This document shows, piece after piece, positions 33,155 through 55,393 of a stretch of DNA of 64,000 nt; the first letter of the stretch is position 1, and the number at the start of each line of letters is the position of its first letter. Under the pieces are notes generated by a model, which saw nothing but the letters and a program-made list of their open reading frames with translations, was not told the origin of the DNA and did not search any database. Position numbers and translations under genes: made by a program. Source of the stretch: Sphingomonas sp. LR60 (GTDB lineage Bacteria > Pseudomonadota > Alphaproteobacteria > Sphingomonadales > Sphingomonadaceae); contig NZ_JASPFK010000001.1 in the NCBI RefSeq assembly GCF_036855935.1, positions 2,482,501 through 2,546,500 of the forward strand. Reading direction: 5' to 3'.

Positions 33155-33231
<77 letters not shown>

Positions 33232-33602
33232 GCAACATCTATCTAAATGCCTGCTTTTGCTTGGTTTTCTGGCTTGCCGCTGGCAGCCACTCCCTCTCCT
33301 GCTCCCACGTTTGATCGCGGCTACAGCCGAATGCGGGCGAACAGCGCCGATCAAATGACCTGCCCAGTTGCCTCTCAGGGTTAGGTCAAAGGTCGAGATC
33401 TATCTGCTCAGGGCGGACGTATCGCGGTGCCACGGCATAGCCCTCAGCTGCCAAACGGCGCAGCGACTCCACCTGCACCAGCCGGCGCCAACAAAGTTTG
33501 TGATTCAGCAGCCCTAACGATCGTCGTGTCGACCAGCACCGCAAGAACGTCAGAGGCGGCATGTGATTGGCACTTGGCTTCACTGAGCGGTAGAACAGCG
33601 TA
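33232..33602. other. Gene-free start of the island
   Basis: I see no supported gene here. A minus-strand open frame in this area mostly shadows the DUF3800 gene, although its tail, VQVESLRRLAAEGYAVAPRY, could be a remnant. Confidence 0.5.
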
Positions 33603-34448
33603 ATGGAATTACCGACTCCGGGGTATGTCGTATTCATCGACGAAGCAGGTGATCCAGGGATCAAGCCCGCCGGCAACGCGCCAGCGTGGACTGAGTGGTT
33701 TACACTAGGGGCGGTCGTCGTTGCGGCGCATCGCGAACCAGAAGTCCGCGGATGGATCGAGGAAATGCGGAACGTCACTCGGTCTCGCCAGAAACCAGAC
33801 CTGCATTACCGCAACCTGTCGCTAGCAAATAAACGACGCGTAGCCCGGATGCTCGCTTCGAAGGAGGTCAGGCTTTTCACGCTGGCTTCGCATAAGGCAA
33901 ATATGCGCGGCCATAGATCAGCTGCCTTGGGCAGAATGGGACCCGACCAGTATTATAATTGGTGTCTACGATTCATCCTTGAGCGTGTGACCGCATGGTG
34001 CGCTCGCCGCGCGCGGAGAGACCAAGTCAGCCCAGCTCTTAAAATTATCTTTTCGGAACGCGGTGGCCATCGCTACTCGGATTTGGTCGATTATTTGAAG
34101 AAACTAGACCATCAATCGCGGGCTGGGACGCTTACGCTAAAAGCTCGCTGCATGGTCCCCAACGTCCTTGTGCCGGAATTGTGCGAAGTCAGACCCCACA
34201 CGAGTGTCGCCGGCCTCCAACTCGCAGACATTGTAGCGAGCGCGTTCTTCCAAGCTGCCAATTCAGCTTTGCCCACCCATGAACTTTCTCCCGCTCGGCT
34301 CTTAAATGACAGAATGGCGAAGGAAGGAAGAAGCAGGACTCACGCAAACTTCGGAGTAACACTTCTACCATTACCGCACCAAGGAACTATTCCGGCAAGA
34401 GAACGCGCCATCTTTGAATTTTATGGGTATGACTTCTCGCTGAGGTGA
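33603..34448 (+). CDS. DUF3800 domain protein
   Basis: 281 residues. The start PGYVVFIDEAGDPG is the DUF3800 signature FIDESGD, and TSVAGLQLADIVASAFFQA near residue 205 is the second conserved acidic motif. DUF3800 proteins have an RNase H-like fold and are common in mobile and defence-rich regions; their activity is poorly known. Codon use is less GC-rich than the core genes (for example TTTGAATTTTATGGGTATG near the end), which points to recent transfer. It is the gene closest to the tRNA end of the island. Confidence 0.87.
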   Translation: MELPTPGYVVFIDEAGDPGIKPAGNAPAWTEWFTLGAVVVAAHREPEVRGWIEEMRNVTRSRQKPDLHYRNLSLANKRRVARMLASKEVRLFTLASHKANMRGHRSAALGRMGPDQYYNWCLRFILERVTAWCARRARRDQVSPALKIIFSERGGHRYSDLVDYLKKLDHQSRAGTLTLKARCMVPNVLVPELCEVRPHTSVAGLQLADIVASAFFQAANSALPTHELSPARLLNDRMAKEGRSRTHANFGVTLLPLPHQGTIPARERAIFEFYGYDFSLR

Positions 34449-34840
34449 CGGGCCCCGGCCTTCGTTTCACTAGCGGGCAGATAGGTCACCATCCGGTGGG
34501 CAACCGTCCCGCAAGCTGCTATCACGGACGAAGCGATCAGGCTGAAGGTATTCCCGGCGTATCCCGTCGCAGAGAACTGTATTCGCGGCGACTCGCGAGT
34601 TCAATCGTTTACGCCTCATCCCGGACTCGGCTCGTCCCGTTTTCGACGTCTCTCGACTCATTACGACGCCAGCCACAGACACAAGCACGTGGGTCCCGCT
34701 TAGGAGGCAAACAGCGCCACGTTGAACGCCTGCATTAGGACGCCCCGCGATCCGAATGCTAACGGCCGACAATCTCGCTTTCTGCGCGGCCGAGGGATCT
34801 GGATGCTAACTGATTGTTGCGCCGTTGGCAGCGCGCGCCG
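34449..34840. other. Gene-free stretch
   Basis: No supported gene. Short open frames on both strands lack family resemblance and recognisable starts. Confidence 0.5.
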
Positions 34841-35528
34841 CTAACGATCTAACATCAACCCCGGCGGCAGCGCCGGCAGACCCTTCATCGGGGCGAACCG
34901 TGAATCAGCGGGCAGAGCCGGCGTGGTCCGAGCTTGATCAGGTGCGCGGCGAGTAACGCCCTCAACCTGCTCCCTTGCCGCCTTACGAGCGTCGCGCATC
35001 AGGTCACTCACCATCGACTGCTTGGCCTCGTCGTCCGCGCTCTTCCAGCCATCAGACTTCACCAGCCTAGACAGCCCCTCCCGCGCACGGTCGCCAACGG
35101 CGACCTGCAAGCGGTCATATTCCGCAGGCGTCCACTCCTTCCGCTTGCCGTCAACCTTGCGGAAGCGCGGCGGCACGCTGACCGTCACCCCAGCGTCGAG
35201 CAGCGCTTTGATGGTCGGATTGTTTTTCGCCTCTCCGGTCCACACGGGAGAGACGATGTCTGGCCCCAAGCCGCCACCCGACGTTACAGGCTCCCCAAAA
35301 ATATTCCGTCGAGGGAAGAGGTCGTCAGACACGCCGGGAGTGCGCGAGCGGATGCGGTCGATCGGCGACCGAGCCTCACGGATCACCGGATCAATCGTCC
35401 GCGTCACCTGCGCGGCAAAGGCGGGCACGGCGACTGCCCCAGCAGTGCGCGCAAGGAAGTTCGTCCAGTTGCGATCTGGATCCGCCAACGCCTCGGCAAT
35501 GCCACTGACGCCGGTCAGCCACGTCTTA
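34841..35528 (-). pseudogene. C-terminal fragment of a large phage-type protein
   Basis: About 228 residues lie left of the IS5 boundary. GISGIAEALADPDRN-like sequence (here VSGIAEALADPDRNWTNFLA) followed by RTIDPVIREARSPIDRIRSR and DDLFPRRNIFGEPV resembles the ends of very large multidomain phage or plasmid proteins. The reading frame enters the IS terminal repeat at 35529, so the few codons beyond it are IS sequence. No matching N-terminal part lies on the other side of the IS, so the rest was deleted. Confidence 0.75.
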
Positions 35529-36362
35529 GGGTCAGGACCCATTGATGTGAGCGTCGCAATCTGATTCAGGCTCCGCAAGGAGACTGGGATGAGCGACCTG
35601 TTTTGGCTGACGGACGATCAGATGGAGCGGCGGCTGCCGTTCTTTCCCAAGAGCCATGGCAAGCCTCGTGTGGATGACCGGCGAGTGCTGAGCGGCATCG
35701 TCTTCGTCAACCGCAACGGGCTGCGCTGGCGCGATGCACCAAGCGCCTATGGCCCCTACAAGACGCTATACAACCGGTGGAAGCGCTGGGGCGAGCGTGG
35801 CGTATTCACGCGCATGATGGAGGGGCTGGCTGCAGGCAATGCCGAACCCAAGACCGTCATGATCGACGCGACATACTTGAAGGCGCACCGCACGGCATCG
35901 AGCCTGCGGGTTAAAAGGGGATCTTGGCCGCCTGATCGGACGCACCAAAGGCGGCATGAACACCAAGCTCCATGCCATCGCCAATGCCAACGGACGCCCT
36001 TTGAGCTTCTTCATGACCGCCGGGCAAGTCAGCGACTATACTGGCGCGGTAGCGCTGCTGGACGACCTGCCAAAAGCGCAGTGGCTGCTTGGCGACCGCG
36101 GCTACGACGCCGACTGGTTCAGGGACGCCCTCCAGGCCAAAGGCATCCAACCCTGCATCCCAGGCCGCAGGTCGCGTAACGAGCCCGTCCGGTACGACAA
36201 GCGCCGGTACCGGCGCCGCAGCCGCATCGAGATCATGTTCGGCCGCCTCAAAGACTGGCGCCGGGTCGCCACCCGCTACGACCGTTGCCCCACAGCCTTC
36301 TTCTCCGCCGTCACCCTTGCTGCCACCGTCATCTTCTGGCTGTGATCAACGAGTCCTGACCC
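35529..36362 (+). mobile_element. IS5-family insertion sequence
   Basis: Terminal inverted repeats GGGTCAGGACCCATTGAT (35529-35546) and ATCAACGAGTCCTGACCC (36345-36362) match at 16 of 18 positions. A TA lies directly outside each end (35527-35528 and 36363-36364), in line with the TA target duplication of the IS427 group. The element is about 834 bases and has removed the 5' end of the phage-type gene on its left. Confidence 0.92.
35589..36345 (+). CDS. IS5-family (IS427-like) transposase in two frames
   Basis: The first frame (from 35589) begins MSDLFWLTDDQMERRLPFFP and runs to SSLRVKRG; the second, which contains GRLIGRTKGG and MNTKLHAIANANGR, covers the rest to 36345. They meet at AAAAGGGG (35913-35920). 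Catalytic residues are present: Asp in TVMIDATYLKAH, Asp in LLGDRGYDADWF and Glu in SRIEIMFGRLKDWRR. Members of this group can make a fused protein by frameshifting at such a site; a mutation is the alternative. Confidence 0.88.
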
Positions 36363-36475
36363 TAGTGCGCCTCGCGCACTGCTAACTCGCAGGGTAGCGT
36401 GGCTGACCACCCATGCCGGTTTTGACGACGAACAGGCAGGCAGGCGGAGCACGATCTAGCCCACCTCTGCAGAGC

Positions 36476-36520
36476 GGCGGGCTCAGCGGTCAGCGAGCGA
36501 TATGCCGCGCTGAGCCCGCC
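36476..36520 (-). terminator. Strong hairpin spanning the stop of the 36483 gene
   Basis: Perfect 13-base arms GGCGGGCTCAGCG (36476-36488) and CGCTGAGCCCGCC (36508-36520) with a 19-base loop. The stop codon of the minus-strand gene lies inside it. It could act as a terminator for that gene; there is no T-run. Confidence 0.6.
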
Positions 36521-36974
36521 TAAACTGCTTGGACGGCTTCACCTCGATCTCACTCATTCGAGACACCCATTCCTCGGTTGTAAACTCAGGCGGGCCGTCG
36601 TCGCTCTGCTGCTCGGGATAGCGCTCTAGAATAATCAGCGGCGGAGCGTAAAACTCTCCCTCGAAATGGCCGGTATCTGTGTAGCCGAACGTGCCTGTCC
36701 CGCGCACTTCGATACGCTGGTCGTCGTAATCGCCCTCTAGAACAATCTCCGCCTCGTTCATCTCGGACGCATCAGGCACTGGGGCCCCGACCGCGGAAAA
36801 CGCCCATACCGGCGTGAGGCTACACGTTGGCTCCTCGTCACCATTCGTCATTGCGACGCGGCCTTCACGGTATTCAACGTCGGCCTCTTCAACGACTGCG
36901 CCTCCGCCGTTTAGCACGGCCACCACCCGCGCGTTCGACAGTGTGTAAATCAGCAGGCTTTCAGCAAGTGGCAT
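36483..36974 (-). CDS. Acidic protein of unknown function
   Basis: 163 residues from ATG 36974. It is acidic and contains regular beta-like segments, such as ARVVAVLNGGGAVVEEADVE and IEVRGTGTFGYTDTGHFEGE, with a basic C-terminal tail SKQFRRAQRG. No family is recognised. It lies between the IS5 element and a gene-free stretch. Confidence 0.65.
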   Translation of the reverse strand: MPLAESLLIYTLSNARVVAVLNGGGAVVEEADVEYREGRVAMTNGDEEPTCSLTPVWAFSAVGAPVPDASEMNEAEIVLEGDYDDQRIEVRGTGTFGYTDTGHFEGEFYAPPLIILERYPEQQSDDGPPEFTTEEWVSRMSEIEVKPSKQFRRAQRGISLADR

Positions 36975-37414: not shown

Positions 37415-38275
37415 ATGATGAGAGCATCATTTCTGGCGGCGGTGGCATTGCTCGCCCCCGCAGGCGCATCGGCGGCGACAATCTTCGGCGTTGACGAAAA
37501 TAATCAGCTGGTCACGTTCGACAGTGCCGCGCCGGGCACGTTTACCTCTTCCGTCAAGATCAGCGGCACCAACAGCAGTATCGAGGCGCTCGACTTCCGT
37601 CCGCTGAACGGAGCACTCTACGGCCTGGGTGTCGACCGGATCGTCTACACCATCAACGCAATGACAGGTGTCGCCACCGCAGCCAGCGCCAAGCTCGGCG
37701 TTGAAGGGACTGTGTTCGGCTTCGACTTCAATCCGACGATCGATCGTGTCCGAATCGTCAGCAACACCAACAACAACTACGTCTTCAACCCGAATGACGG
37801 ATCGTTGACCGGTTCGCCGACGACAAGCACGCTGGCTTATGCGGCTGGCGACCCGAACGAAGGGCGTGATCCGGGCGTCAGCGGCGCCGCCTACACCACG
37901 TCGAGCTTCGGCGCGCCGGGCACCTCCACGCAGCTCTACGTGCTCGACACCGATCTCGATGTGCTTGCCAAGCAGAACAACAATGGCGGCGTGCTGACGA
38001 CCGTCGGCGGGCTAGGGGTGGATCTCGGCTCGCGCACGAGCTTCGACATCGCTGGCAACGAAGCCTTCGCGTTCAACGGCACTTCGCTTTACGGCGTCAA
38101 TCTGTCGACCGGTGCGCTGTCGTCGCTCGGCAGCACCTCGCGTCAGCTCTTCGGGATCGCAGTGGCCCCGGTCCCTGAGCCAGCGACTTGGGGCATGATG
38201 ATCCTTGGATTCGGCGTGATCGGCTACTCGATGCGCCGCCGGCCTCGGGCTCGCTTCACGCGCCAGATCGTCTAA
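37415..38275 (+). CDS. DUF4394 secreted protein with PEP-CTERM tail
   Basis: 286 residues. A signal peptide (MMRASFLAAVALLAPAGASA) leads into a DUF4394-type beta-propeller-like body with repeated segments such as FGVDENNQLVTFDS and FDFNPTIDRVRIVSNTNNNY. The C-terminus is a PEP-CTERM sorting signal: VPEPATWGMMILGFGVIGYS, then an arginine-rich end. Such tails are cut by an exosortase, usually encoded elsewhere with exopolysaccharide genes. In the island it lies just before a decayed polysaccharide cluster, which fits that link. Confidence 0.92.
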   Translation: MMRASFLAAVALLAPAGASAATIFGVDENNQLVTFDSAAPGTFTSSVKISGTNSSIEALDFRPLNGALYGLGVDRIVYTINAMTGVATAASAKLGVEGTVFGFDFNPTIDRVRIVSNTNNNYVFNPNDGSLTGSPTTSTLAYAAGDPNEGRDPGVSGAAYTTSSFGAPGTSTQLYVLDTDLDVLAKQNNNGGVLTTVGGLGVDLGSRTSFDIAGNEAFAFNGTSLYGVNLSTGALSSLGSTSRQLFGIAVAPVPEPATWGMMILGFGVIGYSMRRRPRARFTRQIV

Positions 38276-38733: not shown

Positions 38734-38808
38734 CAAGGGAGCAAATTCAGCAGTTTGCAATCGTTTGGGCTTGCGAGAGCCTGCGGTCGGCTGTTGCATA
38801 TCGGGGCT

Positions 38809-39869
38809 ATGCGGGTGGAAGAACGGTCAGGGGTGCGTGCGCGCCCACAATTTGACAATATTCAGTACTTGAGAGCTGTAGCGGCTCTTATGGTCGTGTT
38901 CCACCATGCCCGGAACCCGTTAGCAGGTGGTTTTAACCCGCTCTTGGGCTATACGATCGGTGAGGCTGGCGTCGACATATTCTTTGTCATCAGCGGCTTC
39001 ATTATGCTGACAATCGGCGTGAAGGAGCAGGTCGGCACCTTCATATCCAGGCGCCTCGTTCGCATTTATCCTCTGTACTGGATCGCGTGTTTCTTAACAC
39101 TATTTGTTCTTATCGCCTCCAAAAAGGAAAATTTATTTGTTGGGCATGTTATCAAATCTTTCCTGCTAATACCGTATTACAACCCGATCCATGGCGGTGA
39201 AATTTGGCCGATTTTAGTTCCCGGCTGGACGCTCAGCTATGAGCTGTTTTTTTATGGGATCTTTGCAATCGGACTGGTTGCTAAGAAGCCGCTGATAGTG
39301 CCCTTATTTCTGCTTCTGGCAACCGTCGCGGCAGGCGCGATCTTCCCGTTCCGGGGGCTGTCCCCGTGTTGCTTACCCATCCGATCCTATTGGAATTTGG
39401 AGCAGGTCTTCTTCTAGCTGAGGCATGTCGCAACGGCGCGCTCTCGCGCTTAGGCTTTTTGCTGCCTCTCGGCGTCCTCGCCTTATGCATTGGTTCGTAC
39501 ATCGGCGGTCCGCGCGTGGTAGTATATGGCATCCCCGCATGCGCAATTGTCGCAGGCGCTCTTGCGCTGGAGGGTGGCACAAGGCGGTCAACGCTGAAGT
39601 TGCTAGGTGACGCGAGCTACTCAATCTACCTTATGCACCCGCTTGTGCTCTTCGTGCTTCGGCGAGTGATCGCGCATGTTCCTCTGGGCGGCTGGCTTGG
39701 CTTCACGCTCTTCATCACCTTGGCTTTGAGCGGGTCGATCATCGCCGGGCTGATCGTGCATCGCTTTGTGGAAAAGCCGCTTGCGCGCCTGCTTACTCGT
39801 AAGCGGCCTCTGATTGGGCGGTCGTCGCGTGGCACGACAGAGCAATCTTCCTTGCAGCTTAGCGAGTAG
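38809..39869 (+). pseudogene. Acyltransferase 3 family protein, frameshifted
   Basis: Frame 1 from ATG 38809 (IQYLRAVAALMVVFHHARNP, the acyltransferase 3 start) runs to a stop at 39417. Frame 2, with VLLTHPILLEFGAGLLLAEA, YSIYLMHPLVLFVLRR and the rest of the membrane domain, runs to 39869. Adding one base to the G5 run at 39353-39357 would join them as FRGAVPVLLTH. Intact proteins of this family O-acylate polysaccharides across the inner membrane. It is either a recent pseudogene or a base-calling error. Confidence 0.85.
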
Positions 39870-40217: not shown

Positions 40218-41298
40218 GTGCAGGTTTGGGGAGGCAGCATGTCGGAGCAAGGGGACGCGGATCAGGACGCATCGCGAGAGCCGACGCGTACGTCATTTCG
40301 CGCGCGAACCTCTTCCGGTGCGTCTCAGCCGATTGACAGGCGTGATGCGCGCAAAACTGATGCGGTAAAGTTGGCCGCGAGGGCAATCCTAATACTACTC
40401 GTGGTCCTTGGTCATAACCGCATTTTTCACGACCATCTCTACTATACTGGCTACATCTTCGTATATAGCTTTCACGTTGGATCGTTTTTCCTACTGGCCA
40501 CTTTCGGGAAGCCTCGCCCGCTCAACCGGAAGACCTTTTCCGGGATGTGGCGATCGTTCCTTTGGCCTTATGTAATATTTACGGCTATCTACGGCAGCCT
40601 GTTCTTCGTTTCAGAGTTTGCGAAGGGCAAGGTCGATCCTTTGACGTGGGCAGCTAGGTTTATGCTAGCGCTCCCTCTGGGCACCTCTCCTATGCTGGAC
40701 GCAGCGACTGGATTGAAGATGCTTTGGTTTCTTCCCGCGTTCTTCGTTTTCTGCATATTTTACAATTGGTACGGCACTGCCGATCGGAAGCTGAAGATCG
40801 CGATCGTCGCAGGCGCGTGCGTGGCACATTTGGGATTGCCGACCGTGCCTCGGCCCGTTCTCGCGATGGCCCCCTTGGCTCGGCGATAGCAGCTTACCTT
40901 CTACTTCCAGCTTTGATTTTCATGCAACTTCGATGCCTTGAGTGGCGGGGGAAGGTGATTGCCATCAACGCGGCGGTTTTCGCTCTCAGCTCGCTCGCGC
41001 TGATCCATTTTCGGCTCGAGAGCGTGCTGGCTGATTACCGCATCTTCGGCATAGACACTCCCTTAGACATGTTCATCTCCGATGCAGCATTGATTTCCGG
41101 AGCTTGCTTCATCGTGTCTTTAGCGCGCGCCCTAAGCGATAGCTGGGCGGCCCGTTGGATTGGAGCTAGGTCGCTTCAAATTTACCTTATTCACGCTCCT
41201 ATAAACCTTGCCACGGTCACGCTCTGCAAGCGCATCGCTTTTTGGCCCCTTGGGATCGTGATAGCGTCTGCCTGTGCAGCAGTTCTGACTGAGGGTCC
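40218..41298 (+). pseudogene. Second acyltransferase 3 family protein, frameshifted and cut by IS3
   Basis: The first frame starts near 40218-40239 and carries AARAILILLVVLGHNRIFHD and LKMLWFLPAFFVFCIFYNWY. It stops at 40889. The continuation AIAAYLLLPALIFMQLRCLE, then RSLQIYLIHAPINLATVTL, is in another frame. One more C in the C5 run at 40870-40874 restores APLGSAIAAYL. The gene then runs into the IS3 end at about 41299, so its last residues are replaced. Two lesions make true loss of function likely. Confidence 0.85.
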
Positions 41299-42505
41299 CC
41301 CAGTTTCTCATCCATGTCGAAGGAGAGTTTCCGTCATTCATTCGGCCGCGATCTTGGCCGCGGCAGCAGCATATTCGACCGGCGTCAGCCAGCCAAGCGA
41401 TGTGTGAGGGCGGCTCTCATTATAGTCCCGCCGCCAGGCCTCGATCTTGGCTCTGGCGTCCTCCAGCGACAGGAACCAGTGCGTGTTCAGGCACTCGTCC
41501 CGAAGGCGGCCGTTAAACGACTCTACGAAGGCGTTGTCGGTCGGCTTGCCCGGCCGGCTGAAGTCCAGGGTCACGCCATTCTCGTATGCCCAGCGGTCGA
41601 GCGCCTTCGAGATGAACTCCGGCCCGTTGTCCACCCGAATGGTCCTGGGCGCGCCGCGGGTTGACGAGATCCGCGCCATCACCTCGACCACCTGCTCACC
41701 CTTGATGCCCTGGTCGACGTCAATCGCCAGCGCCTCGCGCGTGAACGCATCGACGACCGTCAGCGCTCGCAACCGCCGGCCGTCGAACAGCGCGTCGGAG
41801 ACGAAGTCCATCGACCACATCTCGTTGGCCGCCGCAGCCGCAGGCTGTCGGTCGCGGTTGGCAGCGCTGACGTTGCGGCGAGGCTTCTTGAGCCGAAGGC
41901 TCAGTCCATCATCCCGGTAAAGCCGATAGACCCTCTTGTGGTTCACGAACCATCCCTCCCTGCGCAGCAGGATGTAGATGCGGAAGTAGCCGTATCGCGT
42001 CCGCGTCGCCGCCAGATCGCGGATGCGCAGCATCAGCGGCGCCTGGTCCGGCCGATGCGACACGTAGCGCACCGACGACCGGTCGACGCCCAGCGCCAGG
42101 CAACTGCGTCGCTCGCTGACACCATGAGACGCCTGGACGTGCGCGACGAGCTCGCGCCGTCGTCCAGGCGTCAGGGCTTTTTGACAGCACGTCCTGCAGG
42201 ATATGCTTGTCCAGGCTCAGGTCCGCGACCAGCTGCTTGAGCTTGCGGTTCTCCTCCTCGAGCAGCTTCAGGCGCCGCAGCTCGCCTACGCCGAGGCCGC
42301 CGTACACCTTCTTCCAGCGGTAGAATGTCTGCTCGGAGATCCCCATCCGGCGGATTACCTCCGCCACTGACGTACCCGTCTCCGCCTGCTTCAGCGCGAA
42401 CGCGATCTGCTCGTCCGTATGCCTCGTCTTCTTCATGTCCAGCTCCTCGCCCGCAGGCTTCAAAGGACCGGAAAACTCTCACTCAACATGGATGAAAAAA
42501 CAGGG
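41299..42505 (-). mobile_element. IS3-family insertion sequence
   Basis: The ends CCCAGTTTCTCATCCATGTC (from 41299) and, on the other strand, CCCTGTTTTTTCATCCATGT (from 42505) are imperfect inverted repeats of about 35 bases, both running on to GAGAGTTT-CCG. They bracket OrfA and OrfB. A short target duplication could not be recognised, so the exact ends may be a few bases off. The insertion cuts off the acyltransferase on the left. Confidence 0.88.
41338..42436 (-). CDS. IS3-family transposase OrfA/OrfB
   Basis: OrfA starts at 42436 (MKKTRHTDEQIAFALKQAET) with a helix-turn-helix and the coiled coil LRRLKLLEEENRKLKQLVAD. OrfB carries the DDE integrase core: MDFVSDALFDGRRL, VDNGPEFISKALD and NAFVESFNGRLRDE. 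The frames meet at TCAAAAAGCCC (42176-42186). With five A bases OrfA runs on for about 85 codons; six would give a KKP stop and the usual -1 slippery site. Reaching OrfB now needs a +1 or -2 shift, so this copy may be inactive. Confidence 0.88.
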
Positions 42506-45313: not shown

Positions 45314-45862
45314 ATGTTCCGGCATATCCGGCGCATGGTCGGGCAGCCAAAATCGCTCTACGACCTCCGCAAGGTGGAGGGTGCTGTCAACGTCACCTGC
45401 AAGACGTGCGGCAAGTCGCGACTGTACGATCTCGAGGAGCTGATCAAATCGCGGACGTTCCAGCGCCAGTCGACGGACTGGGAGGTGGTGATCCGCGAAA
45501 TGCCCTGCTGGCACTGCGATGACCGCACCGGAACGCGCGTCGCCATCGTCCCCTATGCCGCCAACGATCGCGAGCTGCGCGCGCGCCGTGCCGAGATGCT
45601 TATCATGAACCTTGCGCTGGCTGTCTTGAAGGACTCGACGGTCCGCGCGACGCAGATCGGCGTCGACACACCTGCTGTCCGCCTAGCGCTGCGCGTGCTT
45701 CGGCCGTTCTTACCTGATAGCTCTCTGCTCGTCCGGTTCTGGAATGAAGGCCAGGCAGCCATCGGTGTGCCAGCGAACGAGGTGCACTTCGCTCATGGCT
45801 GGATCGCGCAGGCGCTTGTGAAGCAGGGACACTCGGTCTGGGCTGAGTTCCGGATAGGATAG
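45314..45862 (+). CDS. Protein with two CxxC knuckles, unknown function
   Basis: 182 residues from ATG 45314 (an ATG at 45335 is an alternative). NVTCKTCGKSRLYDLEELI and MPCWHCDDRTGTRVA give two CxxC pairs, suggesting one zinc ribbon. The C-terminal two thirds are helical and rich in Leu/Ala. I do not recognise a family; a DNA- or RNA-binding role is only a guess. Confidence 0.68.
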   Translation: MFRHIRRMVGQPKSLYDLRKVEGAVNVTCKTCGKSRLYDLEELIKSRTFQRQSTDWEVVIREMPCWHCDDRTGTRVAIVPYAANDRELRARRAEMLIMNLALAVLKDSTVRATQIGVDTPAVRLALRVLRPFLPDSSLLVRFWNEGQAAIGVPANEVHFAHGWIAQALVKQGHSVWAEFRIG

Positions 45863-46033: not shown

Positions 46034-46450
46034 GTGCACATCATCATCTACATGAGCCGCTTTACGCGCATCCTGGATGATGACGAGCTTGCCTGCTTGT
46101 TTGACACGGCAGCTGAAAAAAATCGCAAAGCCGGCATAACCAGCGTTCTCCTGCACGATAGTCATCGATTGATCCAAGCCATCGAAGGCAAGCGAGAGAC
46201 GATAGCCACCCTCATGGCCAAGCTCGAAAGCGACCCGCGACATCATCAAATCTCACTAGTTCATCGCTCAGCGATCCAAGCTCGCCAGTTTGACCCTTGG
46301 CACATGAGAGCCGCCCGTCTCGATCCGGGACAGAGCCTCGCCAAGCTGAGCGTCCAGGCCGCCGATTTGCTCAGGTCGACCACCCAAGTACCGGTAAAAG
46401 CTGCGTTCTTCGGATTTTGCCGTTACTCCGCCAAGGCAATCCCTGTTTAG
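46034..46450 (+). CDS. BLUF-domain blue-light sensor
   Basis: 138 residues from a GTG at 46034, with GGAGG five bases upstream. The BLUF (FAD-binding) fold covers about residues 1-95. The photoactive residues fall at the exact AppA spacing: Tyr6, Asn30, Gln48 and Trp89, compared with Tyr21, Asn45, Gln63 and Trp104. The C-terminal tail of about 45 residues has no known output domain, so it is a short BLUF protein that signals by binding a partner. The GAF gene 74 bases downstream on the same strand is the obvious candidate. Confidence 0.93.
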   Translation: MHIIIYMSRFTRILDDDELACLFDTAAEKNRKAGITSVLLHDSHRLIQAIEGKRETIATLMAKLESDPRHHQISLVHRSAIQARQFDPWHMRAARLDPGQSLAKLSVQAADLLRSTTQVPVKAAFFGFCRYSAKAIPV

Positions 46451-47043: not shown

Positions 47044-47109
47044 TCGCTCGAAGACTTGCCCTTTGAGCCGAAGCCTTGCGAATCAGGCACGCCATGTCAG
47101 CATTGGCGA

Positions 47110-47739
47110 ATGTGTAACCGCTATCGCATGACCGAAGCGCAGATCGCGCTGGCTGCCCGCTACGGCATTGAGGCACCTTTTCCGCCCGATCACACGATAC
47201 CGCCGCCTGAGCTGTTCCCCGACAAGCCGGCGTTCGTCGTACGGCAGGAGGCCGAGGAGCGCATGCTCGACACCATGGCTTGGGGCTTTCCGCACAAGGT
47301 ACCGGGCAAGCGGATCAACAAGGCCACGGGCAAGCCTGTCCTTCTCAACAAGAGCGTGACGAACGTCCGCAACTATACCTCGCCGTTCTGGAGATCGGCG
47401 CTGCTGAACCCGGAGCGGCGGTGCCTGGTGCCGTTCACCAGCTTCAGCGAATATGGGCAGACCCGCGGCGCGGACGGCAAACTACCGCTTTACTGGTTTG
47501 ACGTGCCCAGCCGACCGATCGTCAGCTTCGCTGGAGTGTGGCGATCGACCGAGAGCGGTGCGGTGTTCGCGTTCCTCACGACCGAGCCAAACCCGCTAGT
47601 CGCGCCTATTCATCCCAAAGCGATGCCTGTGCTGCTGCACGAGCAAGACGAGGAGCAATGGCTAACAGCTGACGTGGACCAAGCGATCCTGCTCGCCGCC
47701 CCTTATCCTTCCCAGCTCATGGTGGTTGACCTTGGCTGA
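47110..47739 (+). CDS. SRAP family (YedK/HMCES) abasic-site DNA-protein crosslinker
   Basis: 209 residues. The start ATG 47110 gives MCNRYRMTE, so Cys2 becomes the N-terminal catalytic residue after Met removal, as required. The other active-site parts are visible: NVRNYTSPFWR, the glutamate in FTSFSEYG and the histidine in APIHPKAMPVLLHEQD. SRAP proteins form a thiazolidine link with abasic sites in single-stranded DNA, shielding them from cleavage. Many SRAP genes travel on mobile elements. It follows the GAF gene by 66 bases. Confidence 0.94.
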   Translation: MCNRYRMTEAQIALAARYGIEAPFPPDHTIPPPELFPDKPAFVVRQEAEERMLDTMAWGFPHKVPGKRINKATGKPVLLNKSVTNVRNYTSPFWRSALLNPERRCLVPFTSFSEYGQTRGADGKLPLYWFDVPSRPIVSFAGVWRSTESGAVFAFLTTEPNPLVAPIHPKAMPVLLHEQDEEQWLTADVDQAILLAAPYPSQLMVVDLG

Positions 47740-49510: not shown

Positions 49511-49738
49511 TCACTTTTGGAGCAACTGCCTCAACGCCTGCATCTCGGCCGTCCGTAGCCCGTGCTTAAGCGCGTTTTGATTTCCGCGCGGCGCGCCTGG
49601 ATTCGTCCCGCCGTGCATCCTGCATCTCCGCTTGCCCCGCACGGCTGGTGATTGGCACGCCGTGCCCGAGCGGGTCCGGGCTAGGCAACGAGGCGACTGA
49701 TGCGCCTTGTGCATTGGATTGATCGGCAATTCCGGCAT
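49511..49738 (-). CDS. Small HGG-motif protein overlapping the upstream gene
   Basis: 75 residues from ATG 49738, or 67 from the ATG at 49714. CLARTRSGTACQSPAVRGKR followed by CRMHGGTNPGAPRGNQNALK is a conserved motif set seen in many phage and island genes; the Cys and His residues may bind zinc. It shares 173 bases with the 3' end of the 49566-50237 gene in another frame on the same strand. Both frames look coding. Confidence 0.78.
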   Translation of the reverse strand: MPELPINPMHKAHQSPRCLARTRSGTACQSPAVRGKRRCRMHGGTNPGAPRGNQNALKHGLRTAEMQALRQLLQK

Positions 49739-50237
49739 TCGTAACCCCCTGCCCGTTCATGTGTAGTTGTTCGGCGACCACCGCCTGACCGCCCTCGTGA
49801 ACATGCACATGGCGCACTACCTGCTCGCGAGGCTGATGAACCTTCGCCAGTGCCTCCAGCGTGGCACGGCTCTGCGCCTGCGATTTGAGCGCCAGGCTGA
49901 TGTACCGCTGGAATGCGTCAGGGTACTGGCCAACGTTCCGCCATGCCCGCCCCATCAGCTCAGTCGCGGTCGCGTCCAGCATCATGCTCTGGCTCAGGAG
50001 CGCGTTGGTGATAGGCGTCAGGTCACCAGCTGTGATGGTCGCCGCCATCTCTCGCAGCACCTCGCCGACCTCACCCGAATTGCACTTGATCTCGCCACCC
50101 CTGACCGTCTCGCCGGCCATGTGGTTCGTGAGGAAACCGTGACGCAGGAATGGTTCGACACGAAGCTGAGCAAGCGCCTCTCGCGCCTCCTTGCCGTCCG
50201 GCACCACCACCTCAACTGCGTTGTCATCCTTGGCCAT
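49566..50237 (-). CDS. Island protein of unknown function
   Basis: 223 residues from ATG 50237 (MAKDDNAVEVVVPDGKEARE). A helical middle, ALLSQSMMLDATATELMGRA and FQRYISLALKSQAQSRATLE, is followed by a His-rich segment VVRHVHVHEGGQAVVAEQLH and a low-complexity basic tail, much of which overlaps the HGG gene. I cannot assign a function; similar proteins accompany helicase genes in proteobacterial islands and prophages. Confidence 0.72.
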   Translation of the reverse strand: MAKDDNAVEVVVPDGKEAREALAQLRVEPFLRHGFLTNHMAGETVRGGEIKCNSGEVGEVLREMAATITAGDLTPITNALLSQSMMLDATATELMGRAWRNVGQYPDAFQRYISLALKSQAQSRATLEALAKVHQPREQVVRHVHVHEGGQAVVAEQLHMNGQGVTNAGIADQSNAQGASVASLPSPDPLGHGVPITSRAGQAEMQDARRDESRRAARKSKRA

Positions 50238-50274
50238 CGTGCGCCTCCTAAATCGTTCGGGTGTGCGGCCGTTT

Positions 50275-50402
50275 GCTCCACCCCATTTTGCGCCACCTCC
50301 GCTGCTCCACCCCACCCCACCCCCTAATAAGGGGGTGGTGGTGGAGCAGGTTTAGTGCGGCACTGCTCCACCTTGCTCCGCTCCACCTTTGCGGGGTGGA
50401 GC
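50275..50402. repeat. Cluster of six GCTCCACC / GGTGGAGC repeats
   Basis: GCTCCACC occurs at 50275, 50304, 50365 and 50380, and its complement GGTGGAGC at 50340 and 50395. Copies at 50304 and 50340 form a long hairpin (about 50304-50347, loop TAATAA) between the helicase stop and the next gene. Some copies encode the last residues of the helicase (GGAEQGGAVPH region). Iteron-like sites for the helicase-initiator, or a strong terminator plus operator, are both possible. Confidence 0.7.
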
Positions 50403-51605
50403 AAACTCTTGATCGACCCATTCGCCGACGACCAGGAACGCCTTCTCCTTGCGGCGCTCATCAGGTTTCATGACGACAGCGAGAGCGCCGTTGCGGATCC
50501 ATGTGGAGAGCAGCGTCTTGATCCGCGCTTTGTCGCCGGCTTTCTCGATGTTCATGCCGAGCACGTCAGCGACCGCTTCGCCAGCCCATCGCTTGGACTG
50601 ATGATCCTGCCTGTATGTGCCGTCTGCGAGGGCTGCCTGAACCCGCCGGAGACAGCCGACGGTCACCCCATCAAAGGCATCCGGCGGTGACCAGGGCACA
50701 ACCACCGGCAAACTGTCCCCGCCATCCGGTCCATTGCCGAGCGACACGCTATGCAGCCGGTACCAGTCGGACTTATCCGAAGGCGGGGCGCGATTGTTCT
50801 TGTCGTCGTACACACGGAAGAAGCGGCGGCGTTCTTCGCCCTCGATCCCGAACTTGGCGGCTTCATCATCCGACATGCGGTTGAGCGTGGGCACCGATCG
50901 TGCCGCGGCGATCAGTGCACTGGCGCCACGAGCCGCCTCCGCGCTGACCTCGCCGCCAGCAAGCTTTCGGGCATGATGGACGAGAACGACCGCACAGCCC
51001 GCCTGAGAGGCCAAACGAGCCCATTGCTTGGCTACCAGGTCGATCGCGCGGTTATCGTTCTCGTTGACGCTGTGAGACGATACGAACGGGTCTACGATGA
51101 GCACGTCGATCTGCTGCTCGCGAAGCTGCGTCAGGAGAGCGCCGACCACCGGAGCGTTGATGCGAGTACCGTCCTTGGTCTCATGCGCGGTCTTCAGCTC
51201 AGCCCCATCCATGCCGCTGTCGACGTAGAGGCGATTACCAACATCTTCGGGCTCGATGCGCCAGTGGATAGCGGCTGCCTGAAGCCCACGCGCCATCTCC
51301 TCACCGGCATCTTCCAGGTTCCAAAGCCAGACTCGCTTCGGTCCACCCCACACCTTTGGCCCCAACAGGTTGCGCCCGGTAGCCAAAGCCATCGCAGTGC
51401 CGATCGTCAGCGCCGTCTTGCCGGTAGCACCAGGCGCCACGACGACCGTCAGCGACCCGCGGAGCAGCATGTGCCCGTAAACCCAGCTGCGCACGGGGAT
51501 GCCCGCCGGATCTCGCCATTGATAAGGCGTGGCCTTAATCGCAGCGTTGATCGCCGGGTGCGGAACTGGCTCGTCGGCCATCATGGAGGCGAGGTCACGC
51601 GACAT
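50352..51605 (-). CDS. RepA-like AAA helicase/ATPase
   Basis: 417 residues, start ATG 51605 overlapping the upstream gene by 11 bases. Walker A is VVVAPGATGKTALTIGTAMA, Walker B is IDVLIVDPFVSSHSVNENDN, and CAVVLVHHARK is the sensor/H-motif. VWLWNLEDAGEEMARGLQAA is typical of the AAA_25 branch, which includes hexameric plasmid RepA helicases. The C-terminal part has a winged-helix-like region (GNGPDGGDSLPVVVPW onward). It probably unwinds or initiates replication of the excised island. Confidence 0.88.
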   Translation of the reverse strand: MSRDLASMMADEPVPHPAINAAIKATPYQWRDPAGIPVRSWVYGHMLLRGSLTVVVAPGATGKTALTIGTAMALATGRNLLGPKVWGGPKRVWLWNLEDAGEEMARGLQAAAIHWRIEPEDVGNRLYVDSGMDGAELKTAHETKDGTRINAPVVGALLTQLREQQIDVLIVDPFVSSHSVNENDNRAIDLVAKQWARLASQAGCAVVLVHHARKLAGGEVSAEAARGASALIAAARSVPTLNRMSDDEAAKFGIEGEERRRFFRVYDDKNNRAPPSDKSDWYRLHSVSLGNGPDGGDSLPVVVPWSPPDAFDGVTVGCLRRVQAALADGTYRQDHQSKRWAGEAVADVLGMNIEKAGDKARIKTLLSTWIRNGALAVVMKPDERRKEKAFLVVGEWVDQEFAPPRKGGAEQGGAVPH

Positions 51606-52152
51606 GTCGCGCCTCCGCCACCCGAATGGTCGGCAGGCGATCCGGTTTCGTAAGTGCTCGCCGCAGCGTGCCGGCGAGCATGTCGTTGCCGCAGTCGATG
51701 CGGTCGAAGCCGCGGAACGTCAGCAGATCCGGCGCATCCCAGTCGAGCACCACGCCGCCGACGGCGTCGGCCCGCAACCAGTCCAGCGGGGTCGCGTGTA
51801 GGGCAAGCCGCTCGGCGTCCCAGCGCGAGCCGAGGCACGTGTCGGCGTTGAGCAGCCAGCCGATGCCATTGACCAGACCCCAGCGCGCTGGATTGCCGAC
51901 CCGCCACGCGACGAGGTCGATCAACTCGCATCCGTCCACGACAGGCTGAATGACATGCGCTGGCCCTTCCCCTGCCAGAAAGCGACTGCCACGTTCCGTC
52001 ACGCCATTGAAGACGCCGAATGCCGGATAGGATCGACCGATCCGCGCGATAGTGTCGGGCGCCACCCCGACCGCAACTAGGCGATCGAGGTGGCATTGGC
52101 GCACGGCCGCTATCGCGCTGGCGTACAGCGCTTCGAGGTCATGCCCCTTCAT
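51595..52152 (-). CDS. Island protein of unknown function
   Basis: 185 residues from ATG 52152. It carries GVAPDTIARIGRSYPAFGVF and LIDLVAWRVGNPARWGLVNG; the Trp-rich, non-repeat sequence is typical of toprim-like or primase-associated proteins, but I cannot assert that. It overlaps both neighbours by 11-14 bases, so it is made with the helicase as a unit. A possible primase role would fit and is only an inference. Confidence 0.72.
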   Translation of the reverse strand: MKGHDLEALYASAIAAVRQCHLDRLVAVGVAPDTIARIGRSYPAFGVFNGVTERGSRFLAGEGPAHVIQPVVDGCELIDLVAWRVGNPARWGLVNGIGWLLNADTCLGSRWDAERLALHATPLDWLRADAVGGVVLDWDAPDLLTFRGFDRIDCGNDMLAGTLRRALTKPDRLPTIRVAEARHVA

Positions 52153-52486
52153 TGGCTGCGCCCTCCTTGTGCTGGAGCGGACCTGCGAACTGAGGCAGCA
52201 CCCACACGATGGAAGAGATGCCAGCATCGCTGCGTCGGCGTCTGCGACTGTCCATGATCCGGCTGAGCTTACGAAGCTCCGACGTCCGGGGACGGACGCG
52301 GTACTTCTCCCACGACAGCTCACGCGCGATCTCGTCGCCGGTCGCGCCATATGAGCCAGCCGCACCGATCACCCGCACGACCTGAGCTTGCAGGTAAGCG
52401 AGGTTGGTCGTGATGACCTCGGCCGCTTCTACACTGCCACCGACACCGCGATGACCCGCGACATTGGGATAGCGATTGTCGCTCAT
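52139..52486 (-). CDS. Possible winged-helix protein
   Basis: 115 residues starting at an ATGA overlap with the upstream gene. LAYLQAQVVRVIGAAGSYGA followed by TGDEIARELSWEKYRVRPRT looks like a winged helix-turn-helix. A basic RRRRRSDAG segment follows. It probably binds DNA in replication or control of the island. Confidence 0.68.
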   Translation of the reverse strand: MSDNRYPNVAGHRGVGGSVEAAEVITTNLAYLQAQVVRVIGAAGSYGATGDEIARELSWEKYRVRPRTSELRKLSRIMDSRRRRRSDAGISSIVWVLPQFAGPLQHKEGAANEGA

Positions 52487-52701
52487 GCAGCGCCTCCGTC
52501 ATCATCTGCGCAGAGACCCGCACGTTCAACGAGCTTGTCCAGCCACCGCTGCTGCTTGTCTGAGAGAGGCTGCCCTGGATCGACAGCGATCTGTCCGACG
52601 AAGCTGCCCGCCTTTTGCGTTAGCGGTGCTGCGCCAGACCGGTGCGCCTCAAAGAGCGCCCAGGCTGTCGCCTCGACTTGGGTGTGGGTGTCGCTCCTCA
52701 T
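52483..52701 (-). CDS. Small protein of unknown function
   Basis: 72 residues from ATG 52701 (MRSDTHTQVEATAWALFEAH), coupled by ATGA on both sides. An in-frame ATG 15 bases upstream is less likely. It is helical and ends in an acidic CADDDGGAA. No family is recognised. Confidence 0.65.
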   Translation of the reverse strand: MRSDTHTQVEATAWALFEAHRSGAAPLTQKAGSFVGQIAVDPGQPLSDKQQRWLDKLVERAGLCADDDGGAA

Positions 52702-52904
52702 CGAGCTTCTCCCCACGCAAGATCGGCGATAAGATCTGCTCGGAAGCCGTTGATGCCGATTGCTAGGAGGCGTTGCAGCCTCGCCGTCGTTACGCTATCT
52801 GGGGTGCTGCCAAGGTTGAAGTAATTCGCGGCGCCCTGCTCGACCATCCGACCGGTCGCGTAGGGCGTTTGCGGTTTAGGCCCGCTCGCCTGTGTTGGCG
52901 TCAT
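52698..52904 (-). CDS. Small protein of unknown function
   Basis: 68 residues from ATG 52904, six bases after the AlpA-like gene and overlapping the next start by ATGA. TTARLQRLLAIGINGFRADL looks helical. Function unknown; the tight coupling supports it as a real gene. Confidence 0.65.
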   Translation of the reverse strand: MTPTQASGPKPQTPYATGRMVEQGAANYFNLGSTPDSVTTARLQRLLAIGINGFRADLIADLAWGEAR

Positions 52905-52910
52905 GGTCGA

Positions 52911-53165
52911 TCACGCCGCCAACTGCTGAAAAAGCTTTTCTTTGAAGCGGCGCATACTGCGCCCCGAGATTACCGACTTGCCGTCAAGCTTCAGCAATTC
53001 GAGATCACCACGGGCAACCAGCTGATACAGCTTGGTGCGACCGATACCGCCAAGATCTTGGCGGGCCTGGGCGACAGAGAAAAATGGTTCGTCCACTTCG
53101 TTGCCTCCGAATGGATGCGGGAGAACACCCGCGGCAACAGAGGGATTAGCGTTCAGGCGGGCCAC
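52911..53165 (-). CDS. AlpA/excisionase-like helix-turn-helix protein
   Basis: 84 residues from GTG 53165. FFSVAQARQDLGGIGRTKLY followed by LVARGDLELLKLDGKSVISG and SMRRFKEKLF matches the HTH_17/MerR-type fold of AlpA and excisionases. Such proteins bind the attachment site or the integrase promoter and favour excision. It lies near the integrase, as expected for an island excision regulator. Confidence 0.86.
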   Translation of the reverse strand: MARLNANPSVAAGVLPHPFGGNEVDEPFFSVAQARQDLGGIGRTKLYQLVARGDLELLKLDGKSVISGRSMRRFKEKLFQQLAA

Positions 53166-53212: not shown

Positions 53213-53920
53213 TTAACGCTCGCGCAGTTGTGCCTGATAACGTTGACCGTCGCGTGCAAGAGCGGCATGCCAGTCCTCGTTTCGGCGCATTCGGTCGATC
53301 CGCAAGCCATTCTCCGCGTCTCTTTGGTCGCCCCGTAGGCGGACAAGAGCCTCGTCCCCCCAGGCGTTTACAACGTCATCTTTCCATCGCCGAGCGATCG
53401 TCTCCCACTCCGCTCCAAACGCGTTCGCGATCTTGCTACGGCGCTCAGGGCCTTCCAGACCCCTGCCCGCCAGCCAAAAGTCCCACCGAAGCGCCGTAAA
53501 TTTTGCCTGAAGAAGCCTCACCGTCTTCTTTCGATTGCCGAGCTTTGCGAATACTCGCGGCAAGTCACTTTGCGATACCGCACGCGCCTCGCTTTCAACC
53601 TCGCTCAAACTTCCGTGGCCGAAATCAATGGTGCCGAAAGCGTAACTCGCGAGCCGCGCACGTTCGGCTAACGCGATCAGACCTTCTTCTCGGCTTGTCG
53701 CGGGGTCACCGTATGCAAGCCTGACCGTTGATGCACCGCAGGCTCGGCGAGCAAGGTCGAGCATCGATATCACGCGACCAATGCTCTCACGCCTTTGAAG
53801 ATGCACAGGCATTGTGGACGCGGAAATTGGGCGATCCTTTAAAAGCTCGATAAATTCGAAAACTAGGTCAAGCTCTTCCTCGGAAAGCCGGCCTAGATCC
53901 ACGGTCTTGATCAAATTCAC
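53213..53920 (-). CDS. Island protein of unknown function
   Basis: 235 residues from GTG 53920. It is largely helical and basic, with LSEEELDLVFEFIELLKDRP at the start and RWDFWLAGRGLEGPERRSKI in the middle. It stands between the integrase and the AlpA-like gene, a common place for replication or regulatory genes in integrative elements. I do not recognise a family. Confidence 0.65.
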   Translation of the reverse strand: MNLIKTVDLGRLSEEELDLVFEFIELLKDRPISASTMPVHLQRRESIGRVISMLDLARRACGASTVRLAYGDPATSREEGLIALAERARLASYAFGTIDFGHGSLSEVESEARAVSQSDLPRVFAKLGNRKKTVRLLQAKFTALRWDFWLAGRGLEGPERRSKIANAFGAEWETIARRWKDDVVNAWGDEALVRLRGDQRDAENGLRIDRMRRNEDWHAALARDGQRYQAQLRER

Positions 53921-53945
53921 TTCGCCACCTCGCCTTCCGGCTGGT

Positions 53946-55090
53946 TTAGATACGTGCAGACGAACACCCCCATCTCTCTAGCAGGGTCCGCCGCATCTCG
54001 ACGAAGCTAGTCCGCTTGTACGCTCGCACCACCTTATCTGGCACAGCGTGCGCCAAGGCCGCCTCAGCGACTGGGTCAGGCAATTCCGGCATCTTCTCCG
54101 CTGCCCAGTCGCGAAACGAGCTACGAAAGCCATGCGCATCGTAAGGCTGATCAGCCGATCGCAGCACCTTGTTCATTGTCATGTCGGAGAGCATGGCCCC
54201 ACCCCGCCCCGCGAAAATTAACTCGTCGTGCTTTGGCTTTCGCCCGCTCTTCACCTCTTCCAGCAGCGTCATGGCAGCACCACTAAGAGTAACGGAGTGC
54301 GCCACACCGCCCTTCATGATGTCGGCCGGCCTGTTCCAATCTCGCTTGTTGAGGTCGATCTGACCCCATCGGGCAGCGCGGATCTCCCTGGACGCGCAGC
54401 GCAGAGGATCTGGAACAAGAGCGCTTGCCGCCCTGAGGTGGCCGGCTTGCTGCGTAGTGCTGCAACGAAGGCCGGGACTTCGCCATAAGGCATAGCCTTG
54501 AAGTTCTTGCCGGCCGGCTGCTTCGGCAAACCGACGGTGATGGATCGCCCCGGCGCCTCTGTGGCCCGCCATCCCTTCGAGTGACTGAAGTTCAGCACCT
54601 GCCCGACCCGCATCCGCACCTTGCGCGCCACCTCGGGCTTGGCGGTCCAGATTGGAGCGAGCAGATCCCGGATGTGCCCCGCCTCGATGGTGTCCACCAG
54701 GAGGTTGCCGATCGAAGGGTACGCGTGCGTTTCAAGCGACGTCAGGAAGGCCGCGGCGTTCTTCTCGATCCAACCGGCCTTCAATGCCTCATGAGCGAGC
54801 TTTGTCGCCTCCCTGAACGTTGGTGTGGCTCGCTTGTCGCGGTCACGCTCAGCAATGGGATCGCGCCCGTTCAGCGCATGCTTGCGAAGATCGACCGCGC
54901 GTTGTCGCGCCTCAGACAAACTGAGCGCGGCCACCGACCCCAAACCGATGTCGCGTCGCTTGCCGTTCTGCTGAATGCGGATCATCCACGACTTGGCACC
55001 GGTCGGGCTGACGAGCAGGTATAGCCCTGCTCCGTCGCCATGCCGGCCGGGCTTCGCATTCTTCACAGCGAGGGCGGTAAGCTTGCCCAT
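53946..55090 (-). pseudogene. Tyrosine integrase (P4/prophage type), frameshifted
   Basis: Starts at 55090 with MGKLTALAVKNAKPGRHGDG, the DUF4102 arm-binding domain of P4-like integrases, then the core-binding domain and FQILCAAR. The frame is lost at about 54386-54396. The catalytic domain continues in another frame: EIRAARWGQIDLNKRD, then PYDAHGFRSSFRDWAAEKM (His and Arg of the active site) and ALAHAVPDKVVRAYKR. One extra G in the GGG run would give AARPGEIRAARWG and restore the whole protein. It faces away from the adjacent attR and is either newly inactive or a sequencing error. Confidence 0.9.
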
Positions 55091-55393
55091 AAAACTCCCA
55101 CATCGACTCCCACACTTTCGCGCGGCTAGATGCGAACGTCAACGAACAAGTGCGGAACGGCCGACGTGAATCTAACGGGAACGCCAATGGCGTAGCGGAT
55201 GGGTGCGAACAACGGCGAACACGGAGTTATGATCCTGTCGGGTGCGCCATTTACAACTTGATGCGCGAGCGAAGGGCACTCCCGGTGCCGGCTTTGCTAC
55301 GTCACCTTCCATTTCGCTCACTTCAGCGATCTTGTTGGCGTGATTCGGATATCAGCCACCGACATCCAACCCGGCGCCCGAAACCGACCGATT
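55091..55393. other. Gene-free island end and junction
   Basis: Besides the attR core, no gene is supported. The part left of 55232 should hold the integrase promoter and arm sites. Confidence 0.55.
55232..55249 (+). other. attR-type core repeat
   Basis: ATCCTGTCGGGTGCGCCA, identical to the last 18 bases of the tRNA-Arg gene at 33214-33231. It marks the right end of the island, 142 bases from the integrase start. Confidence 0.92.

Follow-up and report, generated by a model that had tools for sequence, protein, structure and literature searches.

A 64,000-nucleotide stretch of the genome of Sphingomonas sp. LR60 (contig NZ_JASPFK010000001.1, positions 2,482,501 to 2,546,500; hereafter the window) contains a 22 kb island inserted in a tRNA-Arg(CCG) gene. 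On balance, we favor the reading that this island is a decayed member of a phage-derived, tRNA-targeted, headless and satellite-like family of Sphingomonas elements, perhaps one that travels with helper phages. The family would descend from temperate phages. At one end, a typical member carries a phage primase/RepA module together with an integrase and an AlpA-like regulator. Most members also keep a phage protein for DNA injection or for the tail: podoviral ejection proteins that include internal virion protein D, a tape measure or a tail fiber. Genes for terminase, portal and capsid would have been lost, and cargo acquired. Intact members may excise and replicate, and may ride as satellites in the virions of helper phages, where the element's injection proteins would replace those of the helper. 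For many tRNA islands, no mechanism of transfer is known.

Insertion in tRNA genes and the RepA-defined family

The single tRNA that ARAGORN finds in the window is tRNA-Arg(CCG) at 33155-33231 (+). A first-pass annotation of this DNA had placed the island here and fixed both of its ends, and these claims hold: the last 18 bases of the tRNA (33214-33231) are repeated exactly, on the same strand, at 55232-55249, 142 bp from the start codon of the integrase (55090). The tRNA 3' end is therefore duplicated beside the integrase at the other end of the island, as in tRNA-integrated islands. With up to three mismatches permitted, chance would give 0.15 matches to the 18-mer in the window. The whole genome (3.94 Mb, 2 contigs) contains these two exact copies and no third, and a reversed-pattern control gave 0. 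Guanine plus cytosine content drops to 0.605 inside the island, from 0.676 in the left flank and 0.654 in the right.

An unoccupied site was sought in related genomes. The gene upstream of the tRNA and the tRNA itself are widely conserved. Of the 29 best related loci, 28 have the tRNA 3' end, and none has island DNA in the adjoining 1.0-1.5 kb. None of the 29 shares the right flank, which lacks a counterpart beside the tRNA, so an exact empty site with both flanks was not found among them. Four loci (L161, L162, L163 and L165; handles of this kind are our own) have a common sequence after the tRNA, and the site is thus free of the window island there. In G153, a different element occupies tRNA-Arg(CCG). 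The nearest relatives of the right-flank ROK gene among 201 genomes are in G129 (82%) and G017 (73%), with no tRNA in the stretch fetched around them.

A second element of the same family occurs in this genome at tRNA-Arg(TCT) (G000:C1:3181070-3208438; L009, L038). It has its own 18-base attachment (att) pair, 27.4 kb apart, and its DNA is 80-82% alike to that of the window in the genes for integrase, RepA and SRAP (SOS response associated peptidase). Also encoded in this second element is a 1003-amino acid (aa) phrog_5880-type protein.

RepA, an AAA_25 helicase-like protein, was identified in 29 of 295 congeneric genomes, at 33 places (E ≤1e-40). We analyzed 28 of these places, leaving out G278, G183, G083, G136 and G173. 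In 16 of the 28 loci, the far end has a tRNA gene encoded on the strand opposite to that of RepA; the 3' end of this tRNA is repeated exactly (15-52 bases) upstream of RepA on the integrase side. These att-bounded loci involve 13 different anticodons and are 8.8-38.7 kb long; no att pair was obtained for the remaining 12. Nine further tRNAs served as a partial control: six compared in the same manner gave no match of at least 13 bases, and three (on the integrase side) were compared only with the whole locus. Elsewhere, a match of 14 bases was seen for two of these nine tRNAs. The att length tracks the integrase type, with 15-25 bases in ten loci that have the window's type and 31-52 bases in six that do not. 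Two loci that retain head genes, G073 and G138, form a separate branch of the RepA tree (support 100). The types of injection or tail cassette are scattered across the tree, which suggests exchange of cassettes between elements.

Head genes, replication module and injection proteins

No complete set of head and packaging genes was found in the window or in 26 of the 28 RepA loci, a condition shared with phage satellites. The other two loci (G073 and G138) are siphovirus-type prophages in which terminase, portal and head protease (identified by PHROG) are followed by tape measure and tail genes. At the sensitivity of the phage-gene queries, and of PHROG and Pfam scans of larger ORFs of 12 elements, no terminase or portal was detected in the 26. 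The window island has no match to phage head genes (terminase, portal or capsid), in agreement with the earlier claim that capsid genes are missing, and its only open reading frames (ORFs) of at least 380 aa are those for RepA and a flippase.

The best negative evidence on head genes comes from a PHROG scan. In all, 112 larger ORFs of 12 elements were scanned, chosen from 161 (156, and five more that span the borders of the fetched stretches). For 60 of these ORFs, from 6 elements, the matches fell in 18 PHROG families; about half of the families lack a named function, and no terminase, portal or capsid is among the names. The same PHROG scan recovered the terminase, portal and head protease of G073 and G138 at E 6e-49 or better. 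Queries from Roseobacter phage CRP-114, with its T7-type head genes, and from podovirus ctQWt234 matched only internal virion protein D (protein D) and integrases in the 28 loci, and no head genes were detected with them in L138-L148, which are pieces of viral contigs. The T7-type head queries of CRP-114 likewise gave only protein D and integrases in v119, v122, v198, v273, v016, v068 and v113. As a positive control, the CRP-114 queries gave strong matches in v026, a true T7-type prophage of the genus with relatives of the portal, capsid, tail tubes, terminase and RNA polymerase. Of the 24 loci L039-L062, which come from outside the set of congeneric genomes, 9 gave terminase and/or portal matches to queries from G073, G138 and Rhizobium phage RHph_X2_26. 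The G073 and G138 terminases miss each other, and these queries alone are therefore insufficient.

A terminase-like match near G196 falls outside its att-bounded element. In whole-genome profile searches, the T7 portal (PF12236) was found in 2 of 24 genomes, both times distant from the elements, and capsid (PF05065) and terminase (PF03237) in 25 and 26 of 28 genomes; by coordinates, only the G073 terminase lies inside an element. In 20 of the 28 genomes, capsid and terminase matches occur within ~6 kb of each other, an arrangement expected of a gene transfer agent cluster. In the compact elements (G214a, G190, G182b, G218, v198 and v119), the ORFs of at least 380 aa were assigned, by homology or by eye, to integrase, RepA/helicase, protein D and its partner, recombinases, UmuC and opposite-strand shadows, with two left without identification.

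The replication module had been described as plasmid-like, but it is of phage type. The window RepA shares 39.6% identity with the C-terminal part of a protein named "putative DNA primase" in RHph_X2_26, a complete phage, and RepA is 39-44% identical to proteins in most of the listed Rhizobiales and viral-contig loci. In the same 9 of 24 loci (three prophages are counted twice, being present in both collections), terminase and/or portal relatives are encoded downstream of RepA within the stretch fetched, with RepA ~3-8 kb upstream of the terminase relative. Single-linkage clustering places RepA in 28 of the 28 loci, two small ORFs in 18 and 16, a phrog_1123-type protein in 18, primase in 17, the AlpA-like protein in 16, SRAP in 13 and a 249-aa protein in 11. 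The primase has CHC2, DUF7146 and Toprim domains in one member. Five loci, the window and the second copy among them, have a different protein of ~250 aa in its place. The family carries its own genes for integration and replication, as phage satellites do; the window itself has a split integrase and gave no primase match. A UmuC-like polymerase (named by eye) was identified in six loci; its recurrence and that of SRAP, in G175, G190 and other elements, suggest a link to SOS mutagenesis.

A large protein of tail or injection type is encoded in 19 of the 26 headless loci. T7-type protein D occurs in six (G214a, G190, G182b, G218, G198 and, as a remnant, the window), and proteins sharing only a stretch with it or with one another in another six (G2, G163, G175, G238b, G110 and G182a; local identities of 28-49%, with G238b 67% identical to G2). 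Tape measure proteins were identified in four (G215, G274, G066 and G271) and a tail fiber family in two (G018 and G166). The G026 locus has a phrog_9880 protein and an internal virion protein with a peptidase. In the elements compared, the injection gene always lies downstream of RepA, in a constant position and orientation.

The window remnant (34841-35526) corresponds, at 38-52% identity, to the ends of proteins of 1510-1596 aa in five other elements. Its assignment to phage internal virion protein D comes by way of its relatives, through their phage matches and through a longer one (P0002, 88%) that matches phrog_6651, a family of internal virion proteins (E 2.3e-28); in the window, only the end is left. 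Its nearest relative in the protein D tree is v016 (99/97). The DNA match to the v016 gene covers 35026-35527 and ends at the border of an IS5-like insertion sequence, and a looser protein alignment extends over 34850-35605. No other significant part of the gene was found in the window.

Relatives of the C-terminal part of protein D occur in 17 of the 295 genomes, at 20 places. Ten further loci were fetched (nine of these places and the G073 portal locus; left out were G183, twice, G216, G272 and G119:C12). In v119, v122, v198 and v113, protein D is encoded together with primase and/or a phrog_1123-type protein, and v119 and v113 end at a tRNA no more than 150 bases from the protein D gene. 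The att repeats are 58 bases long in v198 and 46 in v113; none were found in v273 and v119. Apart from its element, G026 contains a T7-type prophage (G026:C1:1570000-1609999; L215, L216) with relatives of portal, capsid, terminase and RNA polymerase and with protein D split over frames. This is a possible helper type.

Protein D is encoded by one open frame of 1510-1807 aa in ten headless elements. In all 45 pairs of these genes, differences are most frequent at third codon positions and least frequent at second positions, at amino acid identities of 49-87%. This pattern indicates that protein D is under purifying selection in these elements, which counts against simple prophage decay. In the protein D tree, the elements group with L138 and P0003 (84/97, moderate), apart from five viral contigs with podovirus-like gene order (98/96). 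The ctQWt234 protein has a very long branch beside the element side, and its placement is unsure. Monophyly of the element proteins to the exclusion of L138 was rejected (p 1e-14), as L138 falls inside the group. L138 (IMGVR_UViG_3300034069_002171) is a metagenomic viral contig that encodes an element-like protein D, complete with the nuclease-like front described below, and has no head genes seen in its 19 kb; it may itself be an element. The gene directly upstream of protein D is common to eight elements, and its profile matches a counterpart in L140 (E 2e-5, in a set of 91 ORFs).

The element proteins are longer than the complete-looking copies of free phages and contigs (1037-1334 aa). Their front, aligned from three elements and L138, resembles staphylococcal nuclease. 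A Foldseek search with the model of this domain (pLDDT 57) returned staphylococcal nuclease with probability 1.00 and E 2e-5 (TM-scores 0.41/0.53, root-mean-square deviation ~9.7). Pfam gave no match for the front, and a profile search against PDB sequences gave a nuclease-domain protein at E 0.056. A staphylococcal-nuclease-like domain is probable. The window remnant has lost this domain. Possibly, and we suggest this tentatively, headless satellites give helper particles their own injection machine, either a podoviral ejection set whose main protein has the nuclease-like front or, elsewhere, a tape measure or tail fiber according to the type of helper. The injected nuclease might then attack competing DNA in the recipient.

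Alternative explanations and known satellites

Several observations weigh against a family of headless satellites. No helper phage was identified, and a length of 27-39 kb is more than is usual for satellites. Seven of the 26 headless loci have no injection gene (G032, G113, G141, G153, G196, G214b and G238a), although G032 and G113 end at contig ends and some others are limited by the stretch fetched. Six of the 19 large proteins are only partial relatives of protein D, and some match only families without a named function (phrog_5880, phrog_36512). G274 and G271 have tape measure proteins similar to those of the headed prophages. In G066 there is a 163-aa relative of the annotated capsid protein of RHph_X2_26, and some members may thus be prophages in the course of erosion. 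Lastly, the searches have limits: for the other 52 scanned ORFs, the result covers 25 of 77 PHROG families and 25 of 29 Pfam families, and the Pfam profiles for terminase, capsid and T7 portal detect one of six such genes in G073 and G138 (the G073 terminase). Because five of the six are missed in prophages with heads, the silence of Pfam elsewhere weighs little.

The elements could instead be ordinary defective prophages, with head and packaging genes deleted and tail and injection genes surviving as functionless leftovers. This we regard as rather unlikely. Random deletion should at times have spared a portal or terminase, and none was detected in 26 loci. The long open frame of protein D, with purifying selection evident down to 49% amino acid identity, is not what leftovers would show, and headless loci separate from the two headed prophages in the RepA tree. 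Nevertheless, prophage decay would account for a replication module that is the same as in headed prophages (G073, G138 and the 9 of 24 loci in L039-L062), for a gene order that is that of ctQWt234 minus its middle, for the visible decay of the window copy and for the capsid-like fragment in G066.

It is improbable, in our estimate, that the elements are satellites whose tail or injection protein is a weapon or exclusion factor, either a decoy that poisons tail or core assembly or a block to entry. The extra N-terminal nuclease-like domain of protein D would fit such a role, and factors that block tail or virion assembly are described in the parts of PMC11364771 and PMC10884400 drawn on here. 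The partner genes retained in order beside protein D are more than a decoy requires. Very unlikely is an origin as mobilizable islands, spread by conjugation or general transduction, in which phage genes are incidental cargo. The cargo is indeed diverse, and general transduction of chromosomal DNA requires no element genes. However, the injection gene keeps its position and orientation, unlike loose cargo, and no relaxase was present among the 25 of 29 Pfam families listed for 52 ORFs, a search in which no dedicated relaxase model was used. Gene transfer agents were considered as a vehicle and rejected on size.

The satellite-like family that we favor can be compared with several known systems. 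P4-like and PICI satellites have a P4-type integrase, an AlpA-like regulator, a primase/helicase and insertion in tRNA genes, all features found here. They differ in that RepA (AAA_25) and primase (CHC2/Toprim) are separate proteins in the Sphingomonas elements, which also carry a virion injection or tail protein. RHph_X2_26 and Rhizobiales prophages have a related primase/RepA replication protein; unlike the elements, RHph_X2_26 has terminase, portal and capsid genes, relatives of which occur in 9 of the 24 loci. The temperate podovirus ctQWt234 and phage CRP-114 encode protein D homologs; on the circular map of ctQWt234, the genes for ejection proteins are close to the integrase end. Both are complete phages, and their protein D matches the element protein from residue ~690-760, leaving the nuclease-like front half unmatched.

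The closest precedent for the injection proteins is in the PLE satellites of Vibrio cholerae. According to the portion of PMC12987554 used here, PLE11 supplies a tape measure protein (TMP) and a baseplate hub protein to chimeric tails, PLEs are the first satellites known to place satellite-encoded tail parts (TMP, hub) in such tails, and putative tmp genes have been mapped in some cf-PICIs. Satellites with a tape measure gene are therefore already in print. Some members of the Sphingomonas family likewise are integrated elements that encode their own tape measure protein. The two differ in host, and many members here have podoviral ejection proteins in place of a tape measure; the comparison is by description. 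Also comparable, by description only, are tycheposons and VEIMEs, presented as proposed satellite families in the consulted part of PMC11389934 and, in that part and in the part of PMC10872708 used, as tRNA-bounded elements with a tyrosine recombinase and cargo. Among titles and abstract openings in the open PMC literature, we recognized no podoviral ejection sets in satellites and no Sphingomonas satellites that have them. If the elements are satellites, the combination of their own injection protein with a helper's shell would be a wider satellite strategy, so far represented by PLE tape measure proteins (in the portion of PMC12987554 noted above) and here extended to podoviral ejection sets. 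If so, a signature for searches would be an integrase and replication module at one end, a lone injection protein toward the tRNA end, and no terminase or portal.

Gene content and state of the window island

The features of the island are as follows (coordinates in the window, strand in brackets).

33155..33231 (+): tRNA-Arg(CCG), the integration target (ARAGORN)
33214..33231 (+): att copy in the tRNA, its last 18 bases
33603..34448 (+): DUF3800 protein, 281 aa (PF12686, E 1.4e-10)
34841..35526 (-): 3' end of the gene for T7-type internal virion protein D, an ejection protein (homology to proteins of other elements)
35527..36364 (+): IS5-like insertion sequence that cuts the protein D gene (imperfect terminal inverted repeats, 18/22 bases; transposase ORFs named by eye)
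36483..36974 (-): 163-aa protein (likeness by eye to an ORF of the G218 element)
37415..38275 (+): DUF4394/PEP-CTERM protein (PF14339, E 5.5e-60; PF07589)
38755..39869 (+): acyltransferase-3 gene in two frames (PF01757 in the first part; second part by eye)
40218..41407 (+): second acyltransferase-like gene in two frames (by eye)
41338..42463 (-): IS3-like transposase, two ORFs (by eye)
42755..44260 (+): polysaccharide flippase-like protein, 501 aa (PF13440, E 1.1e-37)
44322..44696 (+): PemK/MazF-like toxin (PF02452, E 2e-19)
45314..45862 (+): 182-aa protein (cluster with homologs in 6 of 28 loci)
46034..46450 (+): BLUF blue-light sensor protein (PF04940, E 2.6e-24)
47056..47739 (+): SRAP (PF02586, E 1.3e-23; cluster in 13 of 28 loci)
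49566..50315 (-): 249-aa protein after RepA (cluster in 11 of 28 loci; low-confidence helical model)
50352..51605 (-): RepA-like AAA_25 helicase, 417 aa (PF13481, E 2.2e-36; the family used to choose the 28 loci)
51595..52365 (-): 256-aa protein without a family match, at the position of the CHC2/Toprim primase of 17 loci (cluster of 5 loci)
52139..52486 (-): 115-aa protein, probable winged helix by eye (phrog_1123, E 2.6e-11; cluster in 18 of 28 loci)
52483..52904 (-): two conserved small ORFs (members of clusters present in 18 and 16 of 28 loci)
52911..53165 (-): AlpA/excisionase-like helix-turn-helix protein (single-linkage cluster of 22 ORFs in 16 loci; HTH_17 match in the G2 member)
53213..53920 (-): 235-aa protein beside the integrase (ORF; no Pfam or PHROG family match)
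53946..54572 (-): catalytic part of the tyrosine integrase, in a separate frame (PF00589, E 7.2e-9; match 53967-54392)
54314..55090 (-): arm-binding and core-binding part of the integrase (PF13356, PF22022)
55232..55249 (+): att copy on the integrase side (its last base is where the alignment to this genome's second element stops)

The island combines P4-type integrase domains (PF13356, PF22022 and PF00589) with an AlpA-like protein, as P4-like satellites do. The window AlpA-like protein itself has no Pfam or PHROG match; that to HTH_17 is in the homolog. The first-pass annotation described a P4-like integrase 142 bases from the att site. Its distance and domain type agree with this, but it is split in two rather than being one frame. 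Related integrases are one open frame (e.g., 404, 416, 413 and 419 aa), and thus the window integrase is disrupted. An assembly error is a less likely source of this break. The genome is 98.57% complete, and the integrase of the second element also extends over two frames with its break at another place, both of which argue against such an error. Since the integrase is split and the injection gene is cut by an insertion sequence, the window copy is probably immobile now. Reliance on a helper, in the manner of phage satellites, had been suggested for the island; it would be a good reading for the family, although this copy itself looks immobile.

The cargo had been called unrelated. Cargo is present, but one fragment (34841-35526) is the end of a phage injection protein gene. 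The 249-aa protein was considered as a small terminase, an identification left unsupported by a model with too low a confidence (pLDDT 50).

A small ORF (33386-33778, -) adjoins the tRNA and has a counterpart beside the tRNA of the second element (E 8e-14); single-linkage clustering places it with the AlpA-like proteins. Also present in the window are imperfect repeats of ~100 bases, at 6160-6286, 14951-15048, 21638-21735 and 29214-29317, and another occurs beside the second element (L010, ~149-257).

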